Part shown: positions 9,734-26,901 of the stretch, piece after piece
Numbering within the stretch: position 1 is the stretch's first letter
How the letters are laid out: every line of letters starts with the position of its first letter
From: Calonectria ilicicola
Lineage: Eukaryota > Ascomycota > Sordariomycetes > Hypocreales > Nectriaceae
Direction: 5' to 3'
Assembly (NCBI GenBank): GCA_020809705.1
Contig: CP085826.1
Location: 8,060,001 to 8,124,000 of the forward strand
DNA: 64,000 nt
Notes under the pieces: generated by a model
Databases searched by the model: none
What the model saw: the letters and a program-made list of their open reading frames with translations, nothing else
What the model was told of the DNA's origin: nothing
Position numbers and translations under genes: made by a program

Positions 9734-10552
9734 ATGGGTCACAGTAACTTTCGTGTTGCTATTCTCCAGAATTATTTAATTTCGGAAAATGGCGGTAAGC
9801 AGATGATTGAAAACATTTCGAATCTTGTCCTCAAATCAAAACCGAATGCTGAAATCGATGTTTACGCACCGATTCAGGGCGACACATTCCCCGATGTACA
9901 TAACTATGATTTAATCATTCTCACTGGTGGACCTTTTAATCTTTTGCAAGACGAAAAGCCATTATGGGTGACCGACACCTTGGATTTCATCAAAGCCTCC
10001 ACCAAAGATCAGACAAAGCCTAAACTTTTAGGTATTTGCTGGGGTCAGCAAGCAATTGCCCTAGCCCTTGGAGGCTCTATGGGGGAGTCAAAAACAGGTC
10101 TTTGTGTAGGAATTCCTGTATAGAAACAAAAATGACTCCAGCTAATTCATTCGTCAGATGGGGGTTGAGACTATTTCGTTGACCTCTAGTGGTGAACGAT
10201 TCTTCAATGCTGAATCACTAGTATGTGCCGCAAAACGTGCTTTGGGATCAAGAATATAAAATAACTTCGACAGAACATACATAAACAACATACACTTGTC
10301 GTAACTGACATTGGCCCTCACCTTTGTTGCCTAGCTCTCAACAACGAAATTCTCCTCTCAAAAAATAACCAAATCCTCACTTTTCAAGGCCATCCTGAGC
10401 TTGACGCCATCCTTTCCCAAACTTTGGTAGGCATAGATGGTCCTGGTCGACTTGAAATGAAAACAGGTATTAAGGGGGTTGATTCACCACATGATGGGGA
10501 AGCTATCTTTGCAAAAGTTATGGAATGGGCTTCGGGGAACATTGTTCTATGA
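9734..10552 (+). CDS. Class I glutamine amidotransferase-like protein (first copy)
   Basis: Three exons: 9734-10105, 10158-10220 and 10274-10552 (introns 52 and 53 nt, all phase 0), giving 237 residues, normal for stand-alone GATase1-like proteins. The nucleophile elbow is LGICWGQQ (Cys near residue 99). Splicing restores MGVETISLTSSGERFF, IHKQHTLVVTDIGPH and the His-Glu motif TFQGHPELD near residue 183, so the full Cys-His-Glu triad is present. The family hydrolyses glutamine or gamma-glutamyl amides; stand-alone fungal members have varied, often unknown substrates. It starts about 500 bp after the NRPS on the same strand, so it may belong to that cluster. Without the introns the frame appears broken at 10123, which could mislead automatic callers into a pseudogene or a 129-residue fragment. 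Confidence 0.85.
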
Positions 10553-13491: not shown

Positions 13492-15516
13492 TCAAGCCCC
13501 TTTAAAGGATTCCTCTGTAATCTTGACAACATTCTCGGCCTCAAGACCTTCTGCTGTAGAGCGGTCCCCTGCTTCATCATCGAAAAATCCATCTCTATTG
13601 CCCTTGGCCAGATATTCCCAAGTGCATGGGGTTTCCTGGTAGCCCCTCGGGTACACTGCTGGCTTCCAGATCTGTGTACATGCCAAATATACAACGGCAA
13701 CAGTCGCTGCATATAATACCCACCCTATTTTATACATATTTTTGGCTGCTTGATTGACAGCTGTAGGCTCATATGCGCCAACTAGCCCGGGAATACCCAT
13801 GGCAACACCAGCACACCATGCCACCACACCAGGAATGTGGACACCAGACGTAAACCAATAAAGTTCTTTTGGATTTCCCTTATAGAGTGATGGGACATGT
13901 ATATTCCCTTTGCGAATGACTACATAGTCAATGATGATAATCTAACCAGATGCTTGATTAGCACATTTTTCTTTTCGCTTTATTTTGCCATTCTTTTTAG
14001 TTCTGGAGAAAAAAAAAAAAAGAAAACTCACAGCACACAAAGGAGCCATAAAGATATTGTAGCTGCCCAGAAAAGTGATGAATTTCTGGGCCGTTGCAAT
14101 CAACTCCCAAGGCACAAAGCACACGCTTAGCATGGCGCATAGGACTTGGCCTCGACGGATAGTCAAGTACTGTGGGAAGAGACCTGTCATATCAGCACCA
14201 AAGGGGATAGAGTTGGCGCCGATGTTCATTCCAAAGACGCTGTATAAATATGTTAGGGAAACAAAGAAGACGCCTGCACGACCAGTTGCATTCCAATTGC
14301 GATCCAAAATCGCTTCGTTTAGATCCTGTTACATTTCATTAGAACGTCGGGGCATACTCTAGAATCAAATCATACCCAAAAATTCCAATATGTTTCTCCC
14401 CATGCTCCTTGAATTGAGCTGGTAGCGGCAAGACCCAAGAACATAACGAGAACCTTGGCGAAAAATACAGACAAGCCTTGAGGTATACCCGCATCTCGTG
14501 GCGTCTTGCAGTACCGAGAGAGATCAGGTTGGTTCACGAGCATAGGTGAGAGAGTGCCTAGGATCGTGTTGATACCACTCATGACAGCCCATCCTAGAGG
14601 AACCGTAGTTGCGTTTCCGGAACCTGCAGTATTTTGATAGTCCATATTAGAGAGGCCAGAACCATGGGCCATGCACCAGCCAAATATACCGAATGTTGCG
14701 ATCGGAACCAAGATGCCTTTTAGTGTGAAAAGATAATGAATCTTCGTGGGGTGAATGAAGCACTATGCTAGTTAGAATCTGTCAAAAAGAGGGAAACGGA
14801 GAAGCTTACTAATGGGAATTGCAGTAACCAAACTAAGAAGAAGCACAACAGGGTTTTCGACGAGACGTGCGCTGACTCAGGAAGCTTGTTGGGCATGTTC
14901 TCCCAACGAGATCCGAATATGCATCGTAAACAAGTTGAAAGTAAGTTGGCACCATAAAAGGTCTGAATTCCAAAGGCGATGGTGCCAATAATTGCACGGA
15001 TGAAGATGAAAAAGAAAGAACCATACATGCCCATTGAAGAACGGACTAGGACAGGATAGCCGATGTGGTATCGAGCTCCAGCACGAGCCATACCCACCAC
15101 CACAAGACCACTAATAAAGGAACCCAGAACGCATGATATAAAAGCCTGTTGCCATGTCTTTACATAAAATAATTAGTGACCATGAGTGCAATGTTAGCGT
15201 CTACAACGTACGAGGCCAACGGCAATTAGGGATGCAGCAACATTCCACCCCGCTGTTCCAAAAGCTGTAGAGAGCCAGTAGAGGGGCAAATTATACCTAG
15301 TTAATGAATTAGTAATGAGCGTGGAACTGGGATATTGGGAATATACCAAGTCCAGGTCCGTTCCTCAGGCAGTGTCGGCTCCAGATCACGATTTGTCCAT
15401 CGTGACCCTGGTACGCCCACGGTTTCATGACCGCCAGGAGAAGTCGGAGACCGGATGAACCCAACAAAGGCGGCTCGGGACCGAAATGGTGCCTGTATTG
15501 CTTTTAATGAGCGCAT
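13492..15516 (-). CDS. NCS1-family permease (allantoin/uracil/hydantoin-type)
   Basis: Six exons: 15347-15516, 15212-15296, 14810-15157, 14376-14762, 14032-14325, 13492-13941; total 577 residues, the usual length of fungal NCS1 carriers with about 12 membrane helices. Family landmarks: TPTSPGG near the N-terminus, WTNRDLEPTLPEERTWTW, GTAGWNVAASLIAVGL (helix 1), RAGARYHIGYPVLVRSSMG, the HPTKIH-type loop CFIHPTKIHYLF, SPMLVNQPDLSRYCK and IRKGNIHVPSLY. The family imports purines, pyrimidines, allantoin, hydantoins or vitamins by proton or sodium symport at the plasma membrane; the substrate cannot be read from these residues. It is divergent from the SnoaL-like gene, and the shared promoter has a CGGAC-N12-GTCCG inverted repeat (15803-15826). 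First gene of the putative regulon. Confidence 0.92.
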
Positions 15517-15802: not shown

Positions 15803-15826
15803 TCGGACTTTTCAGAGTCAGTCCGA
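15803..15826. promoter_or_regulatory. Inverted repeat TCGGACT-N10-AGTCCGA, likely regulator site
   Basis: Perfect 7-bp arms; the core CGGAC and GTCCG are 12 nt apart. It lies 287 bp upstream of the NCS1 start and 172 bp upstream of the SnoaL-like start. One of five such sites in the 13.5-26.9 kb block. Inverted CGG-type triplets are the usual target of dimeric Zn2Cys6 regulators. Confidence 0.75.
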
Positions 15827-15997
15827 TGATCAATGCTCCAGTCGGGAAAACTCGTAACAAGAGAAGAAAAAGTGCTGCGCTATGACCCATCCAGCTAAAC
15901 TTTTCTCTTTTATAACCGCCAAGCATGGAGAGCTTGGATTTTGAGATAATAAACCGAAACTAGTCGAATAACAAGAAAGTACCGTCGGCAACCCATC

Positions 15998-16553
15998 ATG
16001 ATTTATCAGCCCACTCTCGCGGAGCTTGCAAGGCACACATTTGAGTATGATAGTGCCGTTCTAGACAAGCCCCTGGCAGATTTTCTCCAAAAGTTTTATA
16101 CCTTGTCTGATGATAGAGAGAATGCCGATAGCTGGGCTGCTTGTTTCACTGATAATGCGACGATGAAACGGAAAACGGCGGATGCGGTCGGTCGCGATGG
16201 TAAGCCATTGGTTTCGCTGACTAGTGCGCACTAGAGCTGATATGATGCTTAGCTATCGCTGAGATCAACCGCGGTTCGTGGGAGGGCCAGGCCGCCCGGC
16301 TCCATATTGTGTACAAGGTCTTCCCTTTTTCAGCAGGAAGCACAGACGAGCTTATGCTCCATGGGCTGAGCAAATATTGGTATGAAGATGGGACGACTGG
16401 GCAGATGCCTTGGGCTGCAAGATTGCACTTCCAAAGATCCAATGGGATTGCGATAGACTTTTATCAGATTTATGCAGTGAGCATATTATCCACCTATGAA
16501 ACAATGGTTCTTCTAATCAGTCCCAGGGTCTACTCCAGCAGCCAGCAGAATAA
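15998..16553 (+). CDS. SnoaL/NTF2-like small protein
   Basis: Exons 15998-16199, 16253-16476 and 16521-16553 give 152 residues. The sequence runs FLQKFYTLSDDRENADSW-AACFTDNATM, then IAEINRGSWEGQAARLHIVY, ELMLHGLSKYWYEDG and FYQIYA. This is the alpha+beta cone pattern of SnoaL-like/NTF2-like proteins, which act as hydrolases, isomerases or cyclases, or as binding proteins. The last intron (GTGAGC...CAG) is optional: reading through instead ends at 16590 with a different tail. It is divergent from the permease and shares its promoter with the inverted repeat at 15803. Its reaction is unknown; its position suggests a step in the same pathway. Confidence 0.75.
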
Positions 16554-16979
16554 TTTGCTCCGGTTGAAATACTTTGAAAGCACAATATGAATTGATTTAG
16601 AATTTATCTACCGGGAACTGCATTTCCTGTAACATGTATGTCGTGAGATCGCTTTTAAACTTGGAGCTGGAAAAGTCAATGAGTGGGCGGATTTTGTTTA
16701 GGATTTAGACTGAGATCCTTTTTTTAAGGAGTCTAATTGATCGAGTTTACATAATCTTAAAAGATATTCAAGTTGATGGATGGTATGTTTTGCAATACAT
16801 CGAATTGATCGTACCCTTTGATGGAAAAAATTGATTAATGCCACCACATGAGGCTTACTAGTTCATGTGATATTAACGAGAAGCCTACTCTCCAAGACTT
16901 ATGCAAAATGTGCCTATAACACGATTCCGCTCTTCTAGCTTCTCTGTGACTAACAATCTGCATAGATTTTAAATCACCA
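16554..16979. other. Intergenic region between convergent genes
   Basis: AT-rich 3' flanks of the SnoaL-like and MFS genes. No gene or notable repeat is seen. Confidence 0.5.
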
Positions 16980-18672
16980 CTAGCAGACGTAACGGAAGTC
17001 CTTCTTTTCCTTATCTGTTAGATCATCCCCGCCATTCGACCCATCTGCATCGTTTCTAGTGACTATACCATAAAGTTGATCTCTTTTCTTATTCTCCCAC
17101 TTGACACCAAAGTAATAAATGGCCATCAAAGCCACAGCAGCGCTTTCAACACCAATAATGGTATTGTATCCTGTGCTATATATGGGGGCTTGTGACGCTC
17201 TGAATGTTTGCGGTGCTACAATGTTGGCGATACAGTAAGCCAGGAATACCATTGCGTTGACTGTAACCTTTTTCGTGTGTCCTGAGGTGTTTGCCATTGG
17301 AAGACTCAATGCTACAGCATACGGACCCCAAAAGAAGTAGAAGAAGTAATAGGCCGTCAACAAACCACCCTGGTTAGAGGAGGGTAGTTTGCGGATGATG
17401 ATGGAGCAGGCCAAAGGGATCAAACAGCAGATGCCTGCCGACAGACATCGAGTGTCTTTGAAGTATCTTGGAGGTAGTGTAGCGATAATAGACGATAGAG
17501 CCTGGATGACACCGGTCGGCATTCCCAACAAGACTGTGTTGAGAGTCGAAAAACCAAATCCAGAGACTATTTGTGCTGAGAAGGTATTGAGTCCGCCATT
17601 CGCCACATTCATGCAAAAAAAGAAAAATGCAATAGTCCAGGACTTCCAGTCAAGTAGAGCTTCGATAACTTGATAACCTTTGAATTCCTGAGATATTTAA
17701 GCATACGGATTCATTATTGAGGGAATATAATACATACCTGGGTGGCGGTACCCGTGTTATCATCTCTTTGCCGCTGTACGGCAATGTATGCTTCCTTTTC
17801 AGTCAAAAATCGCCCAGCTTCTGGTCGGTCTGGGAAGAAGAAAAACATTGCAAGAGAGAAGAGAAAACTGAGACTTCCAAGAAAAATGAAAAGCAATTTC
17901 CAAGACGCGATACTGATGTGAGCGTTTCCAATACCGTATGATACTAGTCCCACGTATACCTAAACCCGCGTTAGTAGCTGTTGGCTTTAATTTGTTTTTG
18001 GAATTCACAACGTACTGATGCGACAGTAGAACTCCATAAAGCAACTCTCAATGGTTGTTCCCTCTTACGATACCACATTGCGGTGACGAGTGTCAAGCTT
18101 GGCAAGGCAGGGGCCTCCATCATACCCATCACGAACCGCAATGCCATCAGTCCCGCAGCATTATGAGCTGTCGCCATCAAAAGAGTCATGATGGACCAGC
18201 CAAATCCAGTAAAAGCTAGGAATTTTCCAATGGGCAAACGGGCCATCAAATGGACCGCAGGGAATTCTGCGACAAGATAACCAAAGTAGAAAATGGACCC
18301 GACTGCATACACCAATTAGTTTCATCAACTTGCTTAATCATGCCACTTACCCCAGCTATACTCCTGGCCTTGGAGATGAGTGTCTTTAGTCATGCCGTAC
18401 AATGCAGCGTTCGACACAATGACTTTCTAGTCGTGATTAGCAAGGCGAATTCTTAGGTGGATACATTGCCGTGGATCACCTACATCTACAGCAGACAATA
18501 CAGCGTATCCCCAGAGAAATGGCATAATACGCCAATCAATTTTTCTGACAAGTTTGCGGACGTCATCTTCGGTATAGTCAAAATACACCCTCGCTTCTGA
18601 TGTAATGATGTTTGGTTCTTCCTTATCTGCGTGATCCTTTGACGTGGTCGGAGATATGGCGCTGGCCGACAT
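16980..18672 (-). CDS. MFS transporter, anion:cation symporter (allantoate permease, DAL5-like) family
   Basis: Five exons: 18484-18672, 18351-18426, 18016-18302, 17738-17959, 16980-17687; total 493 residues, typical of the fungal ACS/DAL5 group. Landmarks are the N-terminal YTEDDVRKLVRKIDWRIMPF followed by VIVSNAALYGM, EYSWVGSIFYFGYLVAEFP, the helix 4 region GLMALRFVMGMMEAPALPS, WYRKREQPLRVALWSS and the tail WENKKRDQLYG. The family imports organic anions such as allantoate, ureidosuccinate, nicotinate or dipeptides across the plasma membrane. The promoter side (18673-19677) has the inverted repeat at 18893-18921. Together with the NCS1 permease it gives the block two uptake systems for nitrogen heterocycles or ureides, which is the reason to suspect a catabolic role. 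Confidence 0.92.
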
Positions 18673-19677
18673 GGCGACAACAGAATTTGAACGGCAAGCA
18701 GGACAGTCTGATAATGAGACTGCTTCAGCAAGAGTACGATGAAAAACTAGGAATTTAGGGATAAGTAGTAGGGCCAGGGGATATTAAGTCTTCTCTGCCA
18801 TTGTTACAGTCTGATATCCTGCTTTGACGCGGCCGGAGTGCAGGGAGGGCCATCAACATTCACGGCCTGGTGGAACAAAAACAGGGCCCTTCTGGCGGAC
18901 ATGGTCGCAAAATGTCCGCCATCGAGATTTTGTCGACCCACTTCCGAATTCGGAATAGTGGACTAGAACTCAAAGTGGAGCTAGCGGACATTTTATTGAA
19001 AGATGCAGGTTTGGCGCTATTTTGACTACCGACTTGGTAAACGCGTGATCCCCCCTTGAATTGCACAACTGTGTATCATGCAAATTTGCGCTGATTGATC
19101 GGTCAAGACGGGTCATCTTGTGAAGAGAAGGTTGGTTCAGAGGAGTAATGGGTAGAGTCTTGGGTACACATGGCAGGCCAATGCATTCGAGTTGATGAAT
19201 TTCCCTAAAAGTAACTCCAACAGACACAAAATTCGACAACATATACAATACAGTGCACATTCCATGATGGGGAACATAGCCTATCATTAATAACCCGGCC
19301 GTTATCGAAGAATTTAAATTAGGATACTGACGGCTAAAAGAAAATTGAACGGAGTTGTGTTTTTGTTACTGACGTATCCCGCAAGATTGCTTCTAACTTG
19401 CAAAGTACGATTTTGTTCACTCGTTTGATAGTACAGATACTGAGAATTCATTTAGAAACCAGAGTTAGGGAATTTTATTTATCACTGGAGGTCAATGTAG
19501 CCTGCAAGGTATGGCGTGCATTCCAGAGGCTTTAGAGTAATCAATTCTTAAACAGACATATATAAAAGATGAGATTTGACCACGTCCGCAATCATCGTTG
19601 AAGCTAGCGTTAGCACGTGAATGATGAAAATGACAGTGAATCGGATGAATTTGGGCGACAGTGTCCCTATCACCCAC
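18673..19677. promoter_or_regulatory. MFS promoter region and 3' flank of regulator gene
   Basis: No gene seen. The MFS-proximal part holds the inverted repeat 18893-18921 and a further GCGGACA half-site at 18984. The distal part is the 3' flank of the Zn2Cys6 gene that ends at 19678. Confidence 0.55.
18893..18921. promoter_or_regulatory. Inverted repeat TGGCGGACAT-N9-ATGTCCGCCA
   Basis: Perfect 10-bp arms, the longest of the set; CGGAC and GTCCG are 13 nt apart. It lies 221 bp upstream of the MFS start codon. A half-site follows at 18984. Confidence 0.8.
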
Positions 19678-22207
19678 TCAATCATCAAAATGTTCGTATT
19701 GAATCCACTGGGTTTCTGAAATGGAGAGAGGGCTGAAGCAAGGACGAGGGCCTCTCAACATCGTCTTCAGCATCGATACTACCTTTGGCTGAGCCTTGAG
19801 ATCTTCCATCTCATTAATTAGGTGTTGTAGATCTTCAGCGCGAGCAGGGGGGATAGCCCACTGTTGCATTGGATCTCCATATTCGGCAATTGGGAGGCAC
19901 TCTGTGAGAATCTCGAATACTTCACGAAATACCCTTGCAAGTTCCCATTTATTTGAAAAGTCAACTAAAGTGGCCAGCCCGGCAAATAGGGATTCGCATA
20001 TTGTCCGTCGATCGTAAAACTCCAGTTGCTGGTGAGTAGGTGTAGCCCAAAGGCAAAACACCACTGTCACTGCTGCTTGGAACTGGTGCAATAGCTAGAC
20101 CCAAAGAGTTAGTGTGCGTGACATTACAAGAAATTTCGAAATGAACCAACCGCAGTCCAGGTGTAGCAAGTGGTGTGATCTTTCACTCTTGAGCGTCGAA
20201 ACGTGATCAACACTGAACATGCTGCCTTGACCAAATATCTAGCGTCGCCACCACGAACAGCCAGCGACGGATTAGGAAAAAGAGACATCACGGTGTAGTC
20301 GGCCAGCTTTTGGAGCCACGCTGCAGATAAAAAACGTCTTTGGCGTTCTGGAGATGCGCTCAAGTTCGAGATGCCCTGCCTCCATTTATCCAACTCGTGT
20401 TTCGGCCATGAACGCCAGAGGTTAGGGACGGGGTGGCCGTCAGTATTGGCATCCTTCTCAAGTTTAGTTGTTATTCTTAAAATGCGATATTGGATTCGTC
20501 TGAGCCAAAATGTGTATTCTTCCAATGCAATGTCTTGCGGCAACGGCGGCACATCACCATGAGCATAAGCTAATCGGAGTTCTTCGGAGCTAATGCTTTC
20601 GCTATCTTGGTCCTCTAGGTCCTGTCTAACGTTAATTTCTAAACAACCTCAAACCTAATATACAATAAACACACATACCTCGTCTGATACCGAAGTTCTA
20701 TCAATGGAGACTTGATGATCCATAGAGTTGGAGAGAAGGATATCAATGACTACGCAAGTACGCAAAGTCATCTTGTGGATAATCTCCTCAATGCCTTGAT
20801 TCGGGGATGACTGGCCATAGAGCTTGGCTTTGTGATATGCCAAGCTTGATAAAGTACAGTTTTTTATCGCTTCAGACGCCCTCGAAATAAGTTCACTGAC
20901 CGAGTCAAGATGCATAGCATGGACTGTGAGTAAAAGTGAAGATTGAGTCTTGAGGGTCGGTGATATGTCCTGAGAGCTAAAGCGATTATACTTGGCTATT
21001 GCACGTTGGTAGGCAATCTTGTTTTTGCATTAGAATATCTCCGAAGCAGATCGCGCGGAATAACCCCTACCTTGGACACATTCATATGGTCTGACGACGA
21101 ATCAGAACTGCTCACTAAGAGTGCTCCAACGGAGAGAACCTTTTCGTGTCAGCTAAGTTCACGTTGTGTTCATAAAATGGAGATCTGGCAAACCATTTCT
21201 ACAAAAAATGTTCTCCAACCTGATGGTTGTTGTTCCCTTGCAGGCCCTTTCCAATATGCCCACCAACCATCCCACTGTTTATGGTGGAGGAATGGCCACA
21301 TTGGATGGGCATTAGTGAAATATTCTCTCATATATTTGCTAGCAATGCCCTCAACCATGTAAGATTCTGAGATTCTTTCTGCTCTCATGTCAATACGTGG
21401 GGCAATGTTCTGCTCATCGAAATCTTCGTCGCGGACATGGTTCTTCACATCCGAAACATCAATGACCCTACAATTAGAAGGTATGCTTAAAATTTCTGGA
21501 GATGGCTCCCAGCCTATAAGTGTTTGATCTCGTGGCGTGTTCGAATCTAGCATTTCGTTGCCCGGCAGGGTGGGGACATCCTCAAAGGTATCGAAGAACC
21601 ATCCCGGGTTGTCAGTACCCCCCTGGGAGCTCATGAAAGCAATAAACGATGGACTAGTACCGCCAAGCTCCATCACAGATGGATCTGCATTGCTCGAGCC
21701 CCGTAGCATGTTTGATTTGTCTGACTGCCGTGTTAAGTGGTCAGTAATAGCAGCTGGGTTCGACTTTTGTAGCTTTGTTTCTAGATTTGCAATGTGCTCT
21801 TCCAACAATTGAATGTAACTTTCTCACTTGCGATTAGAATTCTGCTTTTTTTCTTTCCTTTTGGTCGTGTATGCATAGTTGTTTTTACACTCACCGTGCT
21901 GATGGTTCATTGATGATGTTGGACTTTTTGGGCATTAGCGGGATGCACTCTGTCCTCATTAGCATGCAACGACTGGCATTTCGACGAATGGCAACATCAC
22001 TAACCTGCTCCTGTTCTTGAGCACTCCCCGCAGATGGGGCGTCGCTTATCGCACTGCATAGCCCAGTGTCCATCAGTTTGATGTGACGATATCTATAGAT
22101 CATGGGTGTCGGAGAGTACCCACCTTCTTCTTGCGCCTTCGGCATCGACAACAAGCAATGTCACGAGGGGCTCTTAGCCAGGGTATTTGCAATGATCGGA
22201 ACTCCAT
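19678..22207 (-). CDS. Zn2Cys6 transcription factor, probable regulator of the block
   Basis: Eight exons: 22124-22207, 22005-22053, 21895-21949, 21194-21818, 21071-21139, 20679-21017, 20151-20606, 19678-20094; 697 residues. Splicing the first three exons builds a perfect binuclear zinc cluster C-x2-C-x6-C-x6-C-x2-C-x6-C (CCRCRRRKKK|CDKRRPICGECSRTGA|EC). A short coiled segment follows (YIQLLEEHIANLETKL), then the fungal middle homology region (YFTNAHPMWPFLHHKQWDGW, EMVLSVGALL). The seventh exon is uncertain: the best splice acceptor (20623) gives an acidic linker that runs out of frame by one base near 20572, while a weaker acceptor (AAG at 20607) keeps the frame. The promoter between this gene and the divergent amidotransferase carries the site 22386-22413, suggesting autoregulation. 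It probably binds the CGGAC-N12/13-GTCCG sites as a dimer (inference). Confidence 0.85.
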
Positions 22208-22528
22208 TGCAGCCTTTCCTTTGTCTTGAAAATTCTGTCTCTCAATCTGGATTGAGTTGGAGTTGAAGAACGGGGTGTGGAGAGAGTAAAGTCATGCACA
22301 TGACTCGTATCCTTATCTTGGCTCTGCGCGATAACAAAAGGCGTTACATGACAGCCGCCCCACCAATACGGGTGAGCTTATCAGCTGTCGGACTCTTTGA
22401 ACAATGTCCGACAAGTGGCTCCATAACAAGCGTAAAGCATACCATGCGGCTCTGTTTTAATAAGTGCTATCAGCGATGAGACGGCTTGGTGGAGGATATG
22501 GGCTCACTCGCCATTGTCTATTATCAAA
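22208..22528. promoter_or_regulatory. Bidirectional promoter, regulator and second amidotransferase-like gene
   Basis: A 321-bp divergent intergenic region with no gene. It contains one copy of the CGGAC-N12-GTCCG inverted repeat, so both genes could respond to the same factor. Confidence 0.7.
22386..22413. promoter_or_regulatory. Inverted repeat TGTCGGAC-N12-GTCCGACA
   Basis: Perfect 8-bp arms. The site is 179 bp upstream of the regulator start and 116 bp upstream of the amidotransferase-like start. Confidence 0.8.
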
Positions 22529-23396
22529 ATGGCTGTTGTATCCTCGCGCCGTTGCTTGCGAGTCGCGATTCTACGTTGCTTCACGATCCCTCCCCATATT
22601 GCAAAAGAGCGAGGCCAATTCGATAAAATCTTTGCCGCTTGGATTCGCGCTGCTGTTGAGAAGCGAAATAAGAAACAGGCTACGGGCGACTTGGTGGAGA
22701 CAGAGGTGACTGGCTGGGATGTTATCGATAAAGGGGAATATCCCCCATTGGGCCAAATCGACGCGCTAGTCATAACTGGCTCAACAGCTTCTGCATATAA
22801 TCCGGACCTTTGGATCCAAAAGCTGTCCAAATTTATTCAAGGTTAGCTGGAAATACACGTGGGCCAGAATCAGTTCTAACTAGCTAGATGTATACTACAA
22901 CCATCCTAAAGTCAAGGTGTATGGTGGCTGCTTTGGCCACCAGATTATTTCGCAGGCACTTTTGGCTCAGTTTGGAGTGCAGGTGGCACAGAACCCAAAG
23001 GGCTGGGAAGTGGGCGTGCACGATGTAAAACTCACCCCCGAATTCCAGTCAGCTTTCCCAGTGCTTCTTGACGATGGAAAGATTTCTTATCAATTCCTTC
23101 ACCAAGATGAAGTTGTGATCAAAGATGCGAAGATCCCCTCAAGCTGGATCTCTCTCGGGTCATCTGCTCTTTGCGAGGTGCAAGGATTTCTGAAGCCTGG
23201 CCGAGTTTTAACTTTTCAAGGCCATCCTGAATTTGATCGAGTAATTAATCAATTAAGCACTGAATCGCTTGGAGCTTCAGGAGCTATATCTCGAAAACAC
23301 CTTGAAGAATTCAATGATCTCATAGATCAGGATGACACAGCAGGATTGGCAGGTGAAATCTTTTTGGAGTTTTTGTGCACACCCTTATTAAATTAG
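22529..23396 (+). CDS. Class I glutamine amidotransferase-like protein (second copy)
   Basis: Exons 22529-22841 and 22888-23396 (46-nt intron, phase 1) give 273 residues. The ATG at 22529 is the first in frame. The order matches GATase1-like proteins: LRVAILRCF strand at the N-terminus, IDALVITGSTASAY (oxyanion strand), nucleophile motif VYGGCFGHQ, GWEVGVHDVKLTPEF, FLHQDEV and the His-Glu motif LTFQGHPEFD. All three triad residues are present. Such proteins remove ammonia from glutamine or hydrolyse gamma-glutamyl conjugates, as PuuD does in bacterial polyamine breakdown; which applies here is not clear. It is divergent from the Zn2Cys6 regulator and shares a promoter with the site at 22386. 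Similar in fold to the copy at 9734 but clearly diverged, so not a recent duplicate. Confidence 0.88.
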
Positions 23397-23688
23397 ATAG
23401 ACTAGTAATCCAAATTTGATGGAGTTAAAGAAAGCTCAAGAGTTGCATGACGAGCGAAATAATGCCGGGGAGGAGAGGAATTTCGTTTGTCCACGCGTAA
23501 TTAATTTAAACCCGAATAATTTCAGGCACACATCATGTTGTTTATATTAAATCAAATCTTTAACTTTAATGTATGAGAATAATCCATGCTGTGAATTGTT
23601 CAATGAGTCAGATAATCTGTTGGTAATTAGCGAGCATGTGCAAACTAGAACCAATATCAAATTTATGACAAACTAAGGACTAATCTAT

Positions 23689-24867
23689 TCACTCATTTGC
23701 AACATGGGGTTTCGCAGGAATTCTTGCCCCAGTGGGTGGCACGTTTCTAGACTTGAACTCATCACAAATATCCTCCATTTTTACAAACTCCACTCCTTCT
23801 TTTGTCAGAAGATATTTTATGACTCTATTCAGACTCATGTTAGCATAATGCTTAAGAGCCACATTTAGGAATCTTCATACCTCTCAAGCATTTTTAAAGC
23901 ATGCGGATGTCCGCAAACATCAGGGTGAATTGTGACCGGAAAACAGAAATTGTCGTAGGTCTCATAGAAGTAATCAAAATGATCCTTCCATAAATCTTCC
24001 ACCACACTGGGATGTACCCAGCCGTGACTATTTGTCATATTCTTGATGAACATCTAAGAAAAAAACTGTTAGATGTCTTTGATACCGTAATTAATCACAT
24101 GCATACCATTGGAGGAAGGTCATCCAAATACCAACTGGCGGGAATCTCGACTAGCCCGGTTGTTTCTCCTCGCTTAAGAGGTTTCATCCAAGTATCTGGA
24201 TGCTGCGAGTAGTCGATGTTGGTCCATGTGTCACCAACTCTAAGCCAATGGGGGAGAGCATCATGGTGCGAAAAAGAGTGATCGTATTCTAACCCTGACA
24301 TAGTATTAGTAAAGTTGTCACTATATTGACGACTATAAATTTCATACCATATTCCATCATCAATTCAGCTCCTTCCTTTGAAGTCTCCCACCAGGGAACG
24401 ACGGATCCTCTCGGTGGCTACTATTGGTTAGTATTGTTTGAAACTGTGTCAATTAATACACACCTTTCCACAAAAATCGGTAATCATGTGGCATGTCTTG
24501 TCTAAAACAATTCTTTGTTGCTCAAGGGTCATTTCCTTTGGATTTTCATGAGAGTATCCATGCAGGCCGATTTCATGACCCGCATCTCGGATCAGGGCGC
24601 ATTCTTCGGGAAACGTTTCCAAACTGTGCCCAGGGATGAACCAAGTTGTTTTTATGTCGTACTTTGCAAAGAGATCCAGCAAGCGACGTACTCCGACTGT
24701 CCCTGCAAAGTAACCTTTATGCCAAATTTAATATTGTACGAGGACATGAGGCTAATTTACATACCTCTTGAAATATCAGATACAGACTCTTCTCCGCCAT
24801 ACGATCCAATCCATCCACAAACAGCGTCGATGTCAACCGAAAAACAGCATAGTGCTTTTGGAGCCAT
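23689..24867 (-). CDS. CE4/polysaccharide deacetylase-fold hydrolase, cyclic-imidase or PuuE-like
   Basis: Six exons: 24765-24867, 24464-24714, 24348-24417, 24107-24294, 23881-24053, 23689-23824; 306 residues with no signal peptide, so probably cytosolic rather than a chitin or cell-wall deacetylase. Fold landmarks are FSVDID (catalytic and metal Asp), LHGYSHE (metal His-x3-His), [10 protein letters not shown] and [10 protein letters not shown]. This set resembles the intracellular branch that includes bacterial PuuE allantoinase, cyclic imide hydrolases and Helicobacter PgdA-like proteins. To my knowledge the fungal nicotinate-utilisation cluster uses a cyclic imidase of comparable type (HxnM). 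A ring-opening amidohydrolase role fits the two nearby transporters. It is divergent from the aminotransferase, with two CGGAC/GTCCG sites in the shared promoter. Confidence 0.85.
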
Positions 24868-25065
24868 TGTGGTGATAAAAATATTCAATAGCGCGGGAAA
24901 GCAGGTCGTATGAGCAAGTGATCAGAGTACAATCGACAGGTCCGTGATAGAAAACAAGACTGTCATATTATCTAGATAGATGAATTCGTATTATAATTTA
25001 GTAATTTGGGGCGTATATAAGGCCATTGGGTAACACCAGTTGGACAAACAGGACCCGCTTGATGT

Positions 25066-25087
25066 CGGACATGATAAAAATTGTCCG
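25066..25087. promoter_or_regulatory. Inverted repeat CGGACA-N10-TGTCCG
   Basis: Perfect 6-bp arms, CGGAC to GTCCG gap 12 nt. It lies 199 bp upstream of the hydrolase start codon. Confidence 0.75.
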
Positions 25088-25288
25088 CAGTGGACCAAAG
25101 TCGAGCGGCATGAAAGAAAATAAGACCGATTAGAACTTCCATTCATATTTTGTGACTTGAATTATCTAATCACATATATGTATATTTCACAAAGGTTCTT
25201 TGATCGTAGACTGTCACGCCGCCGGGATTATCCATTGCTAGGCTCCATATCAGTAAGGTGGGTAATACCTATTCCGATAAGGTCGTGG

Positions 25289-25311
25289 CGGACTTTCAAG
25301 CACTGAGTCCG
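25289..25311. promoter_or_regulatory. Inverted repeat CGGACT-N11-AGTCCG
   Basis: Perfect 6-bp arms, CGGAC to GTCCG gap 13 nt. It lies 205 bp upstream of the aminotransferase ATG. Confidence 0.75.
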
Positions 25312-25515
25312 ACACCAGTAAAAAGCCTCGCAGATGTGGCAAATCATTCTAGATAAGAATAAAATTGGCTCGCATAGCTTGGGCCAGGTTCACCGCGAAA
25401 CGCATGGCATCGATATTTACTGCAATTTGACATACCCACCATCCATTCATTTGGACATCTACTATTCCTGAACTCATTGGATATTCGCACCATTTCTGAT
25501 AATCAAATTTCAAAA

Positions 25516-26901
25516 ATGATTGCCAAGACATCGGAACCTATGGCCCACATCAATCTACAGGGTGGCTGGCCAACACCCACTCTTCATCCGAGCCAAGCGA
25601 TGGCAAATGCAGCCTCTGGACTTTTTGCCGACAAAGAAGTGAATATCCAACTCCGTTATGGACCTGAGCTTGGAAGTGCATCTTTCCGTAAAGGTGTTGC
25701 GAAGTGGTTGACAGAAATCTATTCTCCAAACTCTGGGGCTACATCTGGTGATAGAATCATCATCACTAATGGCGCCTCCAACGGACTGAGCACAATTCTT
25801 CAGAAATTTTCTGATACTACCTACACTCAGGGTGTTTGGATGGTAGAACCTACCTACTTCCTTGCCTGCCCTATCTTCAGGGACGCAGGCTTATCTGGCA
25901 GGATTTTTGGCGTCCCAGAAGGAGAACATGGTATTGATATAGGGTTTCTACGAGAAGGATTTGAACATCTTAGCCGAAATGAACAACCCTCGATTTCTAG
26001 AAAGGAGATCAAAGCTGGATACCCGAAGGTGTATAGACACATAATTTACCTTATACCCACCTTTTCCAATCCTAGTGGCAAAACAATGGGTATTGAAACT
26101 CGGCGACGACTCATTCAATTGGCAAGAGATCATGATGCACTTGTGGTCTCGGACGATGTCTATGACATGCTTCGTTGGCCGACTGCAGAGAATGCCCCTC
26201 TTGAGACGGCATTTCCATGTCCTCCTAGGCTTGTTGATATCGATAGAGAAATGCCTGGAACTTCGACATGGGGTAATTCGGTTAGTAACGGATCCTTCTC
26301 TAAAATTGTGGCGCCGGGAATCCGAGTTAGCTGGCTTGAAGCACAAGCTGCATTCATTTCCAATATGGGAACTGTGTGAGTAATCCAATACCCACTGAAT
26401 GATGTGACCTAATAATCCAATAGTGGTGCGACTGTTTCTGGGGGATGCCAAGGTCACTTTGGTTCACTTGTTATTGAGAGGCTGTTAGCCAGCGGATCCC
26501 TTTCAACACATATTAACAAGATATTGATTCCCATTTACCAGAAGAGATGGCGAAAGATGGTCAAGGCAATCAAGGAGCTTCTATATCCATTCAATGTTCG
26601 AATTATTACCGAAGAACATGAAGGATTTGCTGGCGGCTTTTTCTTATACCTATCATTCAAAGAATGTTTAGCCAGCGGGCCAGCGATTGCTGAAGCTGCC
26701 CTTCGCGATTACAATCTCCGGATAGCGTCAGGAGAAATATTCTCTGTTCCAGATGACGTTCAAAGTAAGCAACGAGGATTAAACACTTACTATCACGGGG
26801 CACGGCTATGCTGGGCATGGAACGAAGAAGACGTTCTTGTTGAAGGAATCCATAGACTGGCTCGTGCAATCGAACAGGCGAATGCGGAGGCTGTACAATA
26901 G
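25516..26901 (+). CDS. PLP-dependent class I/II aminotransferase
   Basis: Exons 25516-26375 and 26424-26901 (48-nt intron, GTGAGT...TAG, phase 2) give 445 residues. The first in-frame ATG is 25516; a second at 25540 is possible. Typical fold-type I features are INLQGGWPTP, RYGPELGSASFRKGVAKWL, ITNGASNGLSTIL, PTFSNPSGKTMG (substrate-carboxylate region), VVSDDVYDMLRW (Asp for the PLP ring nitrogen) and SNGSFSKIVAPGIRVSW with the Schiff-base lysine. It is closest in pattern to the 2-aminoadipate/kynurenine aminotransferase group. It would exchange an amino group between an amino acid and a 2-oxo acid, or act on a product released by the neighbouring hydrolase. Divergent from that hydrolase, with two regulator sites between them. 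Confidence 0.92.

Follow-up and report, generated by a model that had tools for sequence, protein, structure and literature searches.

The 64-kb window analyzed here (C2:8060001-8124000), that is, the whole stretch of DNA under study, lies on contig C2 of the Calonectria ilicicola genome (69,930,349 bases in 12 contigs) and contains, within 9.5 kb (9,509 bp), five perfect palindromes of the form CGGAC-N12/13-GTCCG, distributed among seven genes, one of which encodes a Zn2Cys6 transcription factor (the block, Table 1). As C2 is 8,154,651 bases long, the block is located roughly 68-81 kb from its end. An original prediction, made from the letters alone, had claimed five perfect inverted repeats with a gap of 12 or 13 throughout; all five are present in the window, where no CGGAC..GTCCG pair with a different gap in the range 0-39 was found. 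The coordinates it gave are those of the cores for the fourth and fifth sites, whereas for the first three they include 1-3 flanking bases on each side. The ten half-sites of the block all read [GT]CGGAC[AT], mostly with a G before, and the five palindromes are all outside modelled coding exons.

Genome-wide, CGGACN{12,13}GTCCG has 65 matches, five in the block and 60 outside it, such pattern counts being possible lower bounds for repeats. With 60 matches in the rest of the genome, 0.008 palindromes are expected in 9,509 bp, and the five observed correspond to a Poisson P of 3e-13, or 2e-9 once multiplied by the number of such windows; in 100 dinucleotide shuffles of the window the expectation was 0.00 and the largest count 0. 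The genome scan that the original prediction had named as a check thus found the pattern at the background rate elsewhere and extremely enriched in the block. A chance origin of the five sites could draw on those 65 core matches, whose frequency is close to the background seen at any gap; however, five of them fall within 9.5 kb, all with a gap of 12 or 13, all in non-coding DNA and all with the extended half-site. Chance, already considered unlikely in the original prediction, is rejected by the genome counts, the Poisson probability and the shuffles, and its remaining probability is negligible. The palindromes could also be what is left of a small inverted-repeat mobile element, or of a sequence duplicated from one promoter to another, with no regulatory role, as such elements can leave perfect inverted repeats in neighboring intergenic regions. 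This is very improbable, given that the 50-bp flanks are unrelated in ungapped comparison (9-18 of 50 positions matching in the same orientation and 5-17 of 50 when flipped) and that the spacers differ, the arms alone being common to the five. The flank comparison speaks against any mobile-element remnant much longer than the arms, and this reading is rejected.

The gene models were obtained with a small gene finder trained on the long open reading frames of the window and then corrected by hand. Every one of the seven modelled genes has a site centered 130-300 bp upstream of its predicted ATG, in agreement with the placement originally claimed, in four intergenic regions facing these genes; this includes the Zn2Cys6 gene, which, as predicted, carries a site in its own promoter.

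Table 1. Genes and palindromic sites of the block, with positions in the window and the distance from each predicted ATG to the center of the nearest site
Feature	Position	Strand	Evidence or sequence form	Setting	Core	Nearest site center 5' of ATG (bp)
NCS1-family permease (Transp_cyt_pur)	13492..15516	-	spliced model, PF02133 E 5.9e-83			298
SnoaL-like small protein	15998..16553	+	spliced model; Pfam matches under curated cut-off			184
MFS transporter	16980..18672	-	spliced model, PF07690 E 1.2e-25			235
Zn2Cys6 transcription factor	19678..22207	-	PF00172 E 9.4e-07; later exon borders approximate			192
Class I glutamine-amidotransferase-like protein (gamma-glutamyl-peptidase-like)	22529..23396	+	Pfam, structure comparison, alignment			130
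Polysaccharide-deacetylase-family protein, HpPgdA/HxnM cyclic imide hydrolase type	23689..24867	-	3qbu E 5.6e-108			210
Class I/II aminotransferase, alpha-aminoadipate/multiple-substrate type	25516..26901	+	Pfam, nearest structures			216
Palindrome 1	15803..15826	.	TCGGACT-N10-AGTCCGA, core gap 12	divergent NCS1/SnoaL promoter	15804-15825 (N12)	
Palindrome 2	18895..18919	.	GCGGACA-N11-TGTCCGC, core gap 13	center 235 bp 5' of MFS ATG	18896-18918 (N13)	
Palindrome 3	22388..22411	.	TCGGACT-N10-TGTCCGA, core gap 12	divergent regulator/GATase promoter	22389-22410 (N12)	
Palindrome 4	25065..25088	.	TCGGACA-N10-TGTCCGC, core gap 12	nearer imide-hydrolase gene	25066-25087 (N12)	
Palindrome 5	25288..25312	.	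GCGGACT-N11-AGTCCGA, core gap 13	nearer aminotransferase gene	25289-25311 (N13)	

The products of the block point to a catabolic set. The closest solved structure to the deacetylase-family protein is HP0310 (3qbu), with full-length similarity covering residues 1-289 of 306, and the protein is predicted to be an HxnM-type cyclic imide hydrolase, with a substrate judged from its relatives. The class I glutamine-amidotransferase-like protein (GATase) is nearest to gamma-glutamyl peptidase 1; among 12 aligned sequences its C119 is nearly invariant and its H217 and E219 are invariant, and these three residues are presumably the catalytic ones. For the aminotransferase, the nearest matches are multiple-substrate and alpha-aminoadipate aminotransferases, and the fold of the SnoaL-like protein is indicated by an 85% identical Ilyonectria protein, whose model (mean predicted local distance difference test score of 91.6) matches NTF2/SnoaL-like structures. 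The NCS1 gene is separated by 4.3 kb from the end of a large nonribosomal peptide synthetase (NRPS) gene, and the sites could therefore serve repression or biosynthesis, with the NRPS as the main product gene. This seems quite improbable: as originally predicted, only half-sites occur near the NRPS and the flanking genes, no gap-12/13 site with up to two mismatches being found near the NRPS or its adjoining GATase-like gene, and the block encodes transporters, an aminotransferase and hydrolase-like proteins, a composition known from catabolic sets, and has GATA motifs. Outside the five palindromes, the only extended site with up to two mismatches at gap 12/13 in the window is at 21431, with two mismatches and within the regulator coding region. 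The NRPS as a target of the palindromes is rejected for lack of a nearby site. The GATase-like gene beside it (window 9734-10552) encodes a protein 25% identical to the block GATase and is without palindrome. Towards the contig end, the window changes abruptly to an AT-rich stretch (41001-64000) with 15-29% G+C per kb.

HGATAR, the motif taken for control by GATA factors such as AreA, occurs 21 times in the 1,951 bp of the four block promoters, versus 7.1 in shuffles, a threefold enrichment reached in 0 of 2,000 shuffles. This dense packing of GATA motifs suggests that the block may also be under general nitrogen control.

The regulator has an intact zinc motif, CX2CX6CX6CX2CX6C, which agrees with the Zn2Cys6 pattern CX2CX6CX5-12CX2CX6-8C and is spread across two introns (first exons 22207-22124, 22053-22005 and 21949-21895); its PF00172 match scores 29.3 bits against a cut-off of 21, and the domain is followed by a stretch that by eye is leucine-rich and coiled-coil-like. 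The version used for searches had 648 residues and was without roughly 50 middle and 4 later residues of its homologues. The residues matching those gaps are encoded in the window, in open stretches between plausible introns, and the gene is therefore read as intact. Among 7,991 candidates scored, 18 homologues of the regulator were found, the best of which, from Ilyonectria, has 57% identity. The zinc domain hardly differs in the Ilyonectria and Colletotrichum homologues, and the next helix is similar, while the linker varies. Linkage in relatives was judged by matches to the regulator and its neighbors on contigs of equal length. The regulator and GATase matches share such contigs in nine relatives (Ilyonectria, Clonostachys rosea, C. 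solani, Colletotrichum gloeosporioides 23, Thozetella, Pestalotiopsis fici, Pestalotiopsis NC0098, Seiridium and Xylariaceae FL0804); the two locus tags directly follow one another in Colletotrichum gloeosporioides 23 (38829/38828) and Pestalotiopsis fici (08556/08557). The regulator and SnoaL matches share equal-length contigs in C. rosea, Seiridium, Xylariaceae FL0804 and Neocosmospora mangrovei (tags 014732/014736). In total, 10 of the 18 regulator matches share an equal-length contig with a GATase or SnoaL match, which indirectly supports a conserved linkage of the regulator with its neighbors in other fungi. A pattern derived from the GATase alignment gave 43 stretches in genome_contigs and 11 in viral_contigs, none of them confirmed as related fungal DNA.

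A paralogous cluster was reached through the genome search with the regulator and the list of extended sites. At C6:409000-421067 it comprises an MFS gene (49% identical), a SnoaL-like gene (27%, E 4e-15), a Zn2Cys6 gene starting at 414686 and a second MFS gene. Here, TCGGAC-N4-GTCCGC occurs twice, at 415395 and 419067, and the MFS/SnoaL promoter has two gap-3 versions with one mismatch each, at 411670 and 411689. None of 500 shuffles of the 17 kb analyzed contained four gap-3/4 sites with up to one mismatch, and in none did any two neighboring gaps give four sites; the gaps for this test were selected with the sites already known. The same 17 kb have three further matches with up to one mismatch, at gaps 13, 19 and 22; because the gap-13 match (417183) also occurs there, the separation of the two clusters by spacing is not absolute. 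These observations suggest that the paralogous regulators may have diverged in spacing while retaining the half-site. From the last zinc Cys to the Tyr opening the next helix there are 17 residues in both regulators as modelled, and 16 in one Colletotrichum homologue. It is tentatively proposed, as a possibility that remains doubtful, that the same half-site would be read at 12/13 by the block regulator and at 3/4 by that of C6, a difference of nine bases or just under one helical turn, which would split the regulons; with linkers of equal length, it would be the sequence of the linker and helix, not linker length, that determines the spacing. If true, a change of nearly one turn would have separated two regulons with the half-site fixed.

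The same cluster bears on the identity of the binding protein. Sites that are regulatory and bound by another Zn2Cys6 protein, either a paralogue or a heterodimer, are an unlikely but more serious alternative to binding by the block's own regulator. Apart from its own gene, the regulator search had 31 matches in the genome, of which 26 involve the N-terminal zinc-domain region, and the cluster of the C6 paralogue has the same half-site, so that half-site identity alone does not name the binder. On the other hand, the block regulator is encoded within the block, its promoter contains one of the sites, and it is found with its neighbors on equal-length contigs in other fungi, and the C6 spacing is 3/4 versus 12/13, save for the single gap-13 match with one mismatch. 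Binding by the block's own regulator is thus preferred.

The longer half-site was also searched in the whole genome. KCGGACW-N-WGTCCGM has 70 matches over inner gaps 1-30, and 16 (counted from a list of 23) have a core gap of 12 or 13, with 5 in the block and 11 elsewhere. As these 11 exceed the 3.9 expected from other gaps (P 0.002), some of them may also be in use. The setting of each was determined with the same type of gene finder on the surrounding 4-5 kb. Six are about 1-310 bp 5' of a predicted start (C1:4977200, C9:445683, C8:904782, C6:5581578, C6:5584279 and C11:1200000), and one (C6:170313) about 685 bp 5' of a predicted start. The site at C9:445683 is a perfect N12 palindrome 97 bp 5' of the modelled start of an amidohydrolase-like gene (family judged by eye), and those at C6:5581578 and C6:5584279, separated by 2.7 kb, are both perfect N12 palindromes of the TCGGACAC type. 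P450 and zinc-reductase-like genes lie next to these two, and no Zn2Cys6 gene is present within 10 kb on each side according to the gene models.

The site at C1:4977200-4977224 is a perfect N13 palindrome, unlinked to the block and 203 bp 5' of the modelled start of an omega-amidase-type gene at C1:4977530. The model of this gene has 511 residues with a doubtful tail, and its first 325 residues, which were those searched, are nearest to YLR351C (E 6e-98); YLR351C and Nit2 are taken here to be omega-amidases. Such an enzyme would act on the half-amide made by the imide hydrolase, which suggests an attractive link with the block. Its paralogue on C10 (58%) has no gap-12/13 site with up to two mismatches. 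The left arm is GCGGAC in the three N13 sites taken as functional (those of the block and C1:4977200) and TCGGAC in the three N12 sites of the block, a split that other N13 matches do not follow and whose numbers are too few to interpret. For the imide hydrolase and GATase paralogues, the surroundings of 12 loci in 9 places were fetched; they contain no gap-12/13 site with up to one mismatch and a single one with two mismatches. On C7 (38473-45889), a regulator paralogue and a GATase paralogue with 39% identity are grouped with a lyase-like gene and the first part of an MFS gene, and these 8 kb have no perfect block-type site, one gap-12 match with one mismatch in a coding exon and additional matches with two mismatches.

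Here it is proposed that the five palindromes are probably the operators of a self-regulated catabolic regulon, switched by the block's own Zn2Cys6 activator and, in addition, subject to nitrogen control. A Zn2Cys6 dimer would read two inverted [GT]CGGAC[AT] half-sites whose CGGAC cores are 12 or 13 bp apart (CGG-N16/17-CCG) and, with sites in four promoter regions, would drive the seven genes from them, its own gene included, as feedback. The two transporters would import a cyclic imide or a related N-heterocycle, and the HxnM-type hydrolase would open the ring to a half-amide, whose nitrogen would be freed by an amidase (the block GATase-like protein and/or the unlinked C1 omega-amidase); the aminotransferase would then handle the amino or keto product, and the GATA motifs would place the set under general nitrogen control as well. 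Within this regulon we infer the binding by the block protein, activation as against repression, the substrate and the order of the reactions. The original interpretation of a co-regulated block is supported and was right in substance.

Several observations weigh against this proposal. The starts and exons are those of our own models. Outside the block, the N12/13 core is not enriched (60 versus 51.6 expected, P 0.14); CGGACN{1,30}GTCCG has 788 matches in the genome, about 26 per gap, so that a gap of 12 or 13 is ordinary genome-wide. Among the 11 extended sites outside the block, 4 fall in predicted coding exons (C2:7285378, C6:306564, C3:4494820 and C7:3012325), and a perfect site therefore does not imply function. 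Eight other promoters of the window (4,003 bp) are also mildly GATA-rich (20 versus 12.7, P 0.031), and the omega-amidase link is post hoc, noticed after the search. Regarding the relatives, 8 of the 18 regulator matches are without an equal-length GATase (E 1e-30 or better) or SnoaL match, the Thozetella SnoaL match is on a contig of 501,078 while the regulator and GATase are on one of 1,301,518, and the SnoaL contigs of Diaporthe amygdali and Ilyonectria differ in length from those of the regulator, in rows that stand for several sequences.

The block provides a concrete candidate regulon for Zn2Cys6 regulators found in Ilyonectria, Neocosmospora, Colletotrichum, Clonostachys, Pestalotiopsis and others, for the most part on equal-length contigs with their GATase or SnoaL neighbors, and the pair of paralogous clusters with a common half-site and different spacing would make a natural test of spacer choice in zinc cluster proteins. 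A literature search found no paper on this cluster, and none among those listed with CGGAC in Zn2Cys6 promoter repeats, which is weak evidence of absence as short sequence words search poorly. For imidase gene clusters with NCS1 in fungi, imidase appeared only in hxn papers among the matches listed, and the papers listed for omega-amidase did not contain that term.

The hxn (nicotinate) regulon differs from the block in several aspects. HxnR is a C2H2-type factor, whereas the block has a Zn2Cys6 regulator, as well as an NCS1 permease, a GATase-like protein and an aminotransferase, and its seven genes are without the hydroxylase, monooxygenase or dehydrogenase of that pathway; a search confined to the seven block models and their Pfam matches did not find hxnS, hxnT, hxnV, hxnW, hxnX or hxnN. 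The hxn papers report that the cyclic imide hydrolase HxnM of Aspergillus nidulans is structurally related to HpPgdA/HP0310 (PMC9304392), that ring opening precedes the action of an amidase (PMC9304392, PMC8478523), and that the hxn regulon, imide hydrolase included, is under AreA and a specific factor (PMC8478523). The likeness extends to the HxnM-type hydrolase, the amidase step and the combination of a specific regulator with a GATA factor (PMC9304392, PMC8478523). HxnM paralogues presumed unrelated to nicotinate are noted in all dikarya investigated (PMC8478523). The block hydrolase may be one of these paralogues, for which the block gives a genomic context.

The mechanism is ordinary, that of a pathway-specific zinc cluster regulator with operator palindromes, and it is the long spacer and the paralogous cluster that are more than routine. 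Gal4, Put3, Ppr1 and UaY have classic short spacers, shorter than that of the block, and the War1 spacer (N23) is longer. According to PMC9000951, Zn2Cys6 regulators owe their specificity to the orientation and spacer length of CGG pairs, and those described there, like the block regulator, have a Zn2Cys6 domain followed by a leucine-rich stretch, the block sites likewise consisting of two CGG triplets. With a 7-bp half-site, CGG-N16/17-CCG is longer than the AOD2/AOD5 motif, whose CGG triplets are seven nucleotides apart (PMC5295593). The yeast zinc-cluster paralogues Hal9/Tbs1 and Oaf1/Pip2 differ in the spacing or orientation of their CGG pairs (PMC9000951). Unlike these pairs, the block and C6 regulators are each encoded in a paralogous MFS/SnoaL cluster, with putative sites at gaps 12/13 versus 3/4.

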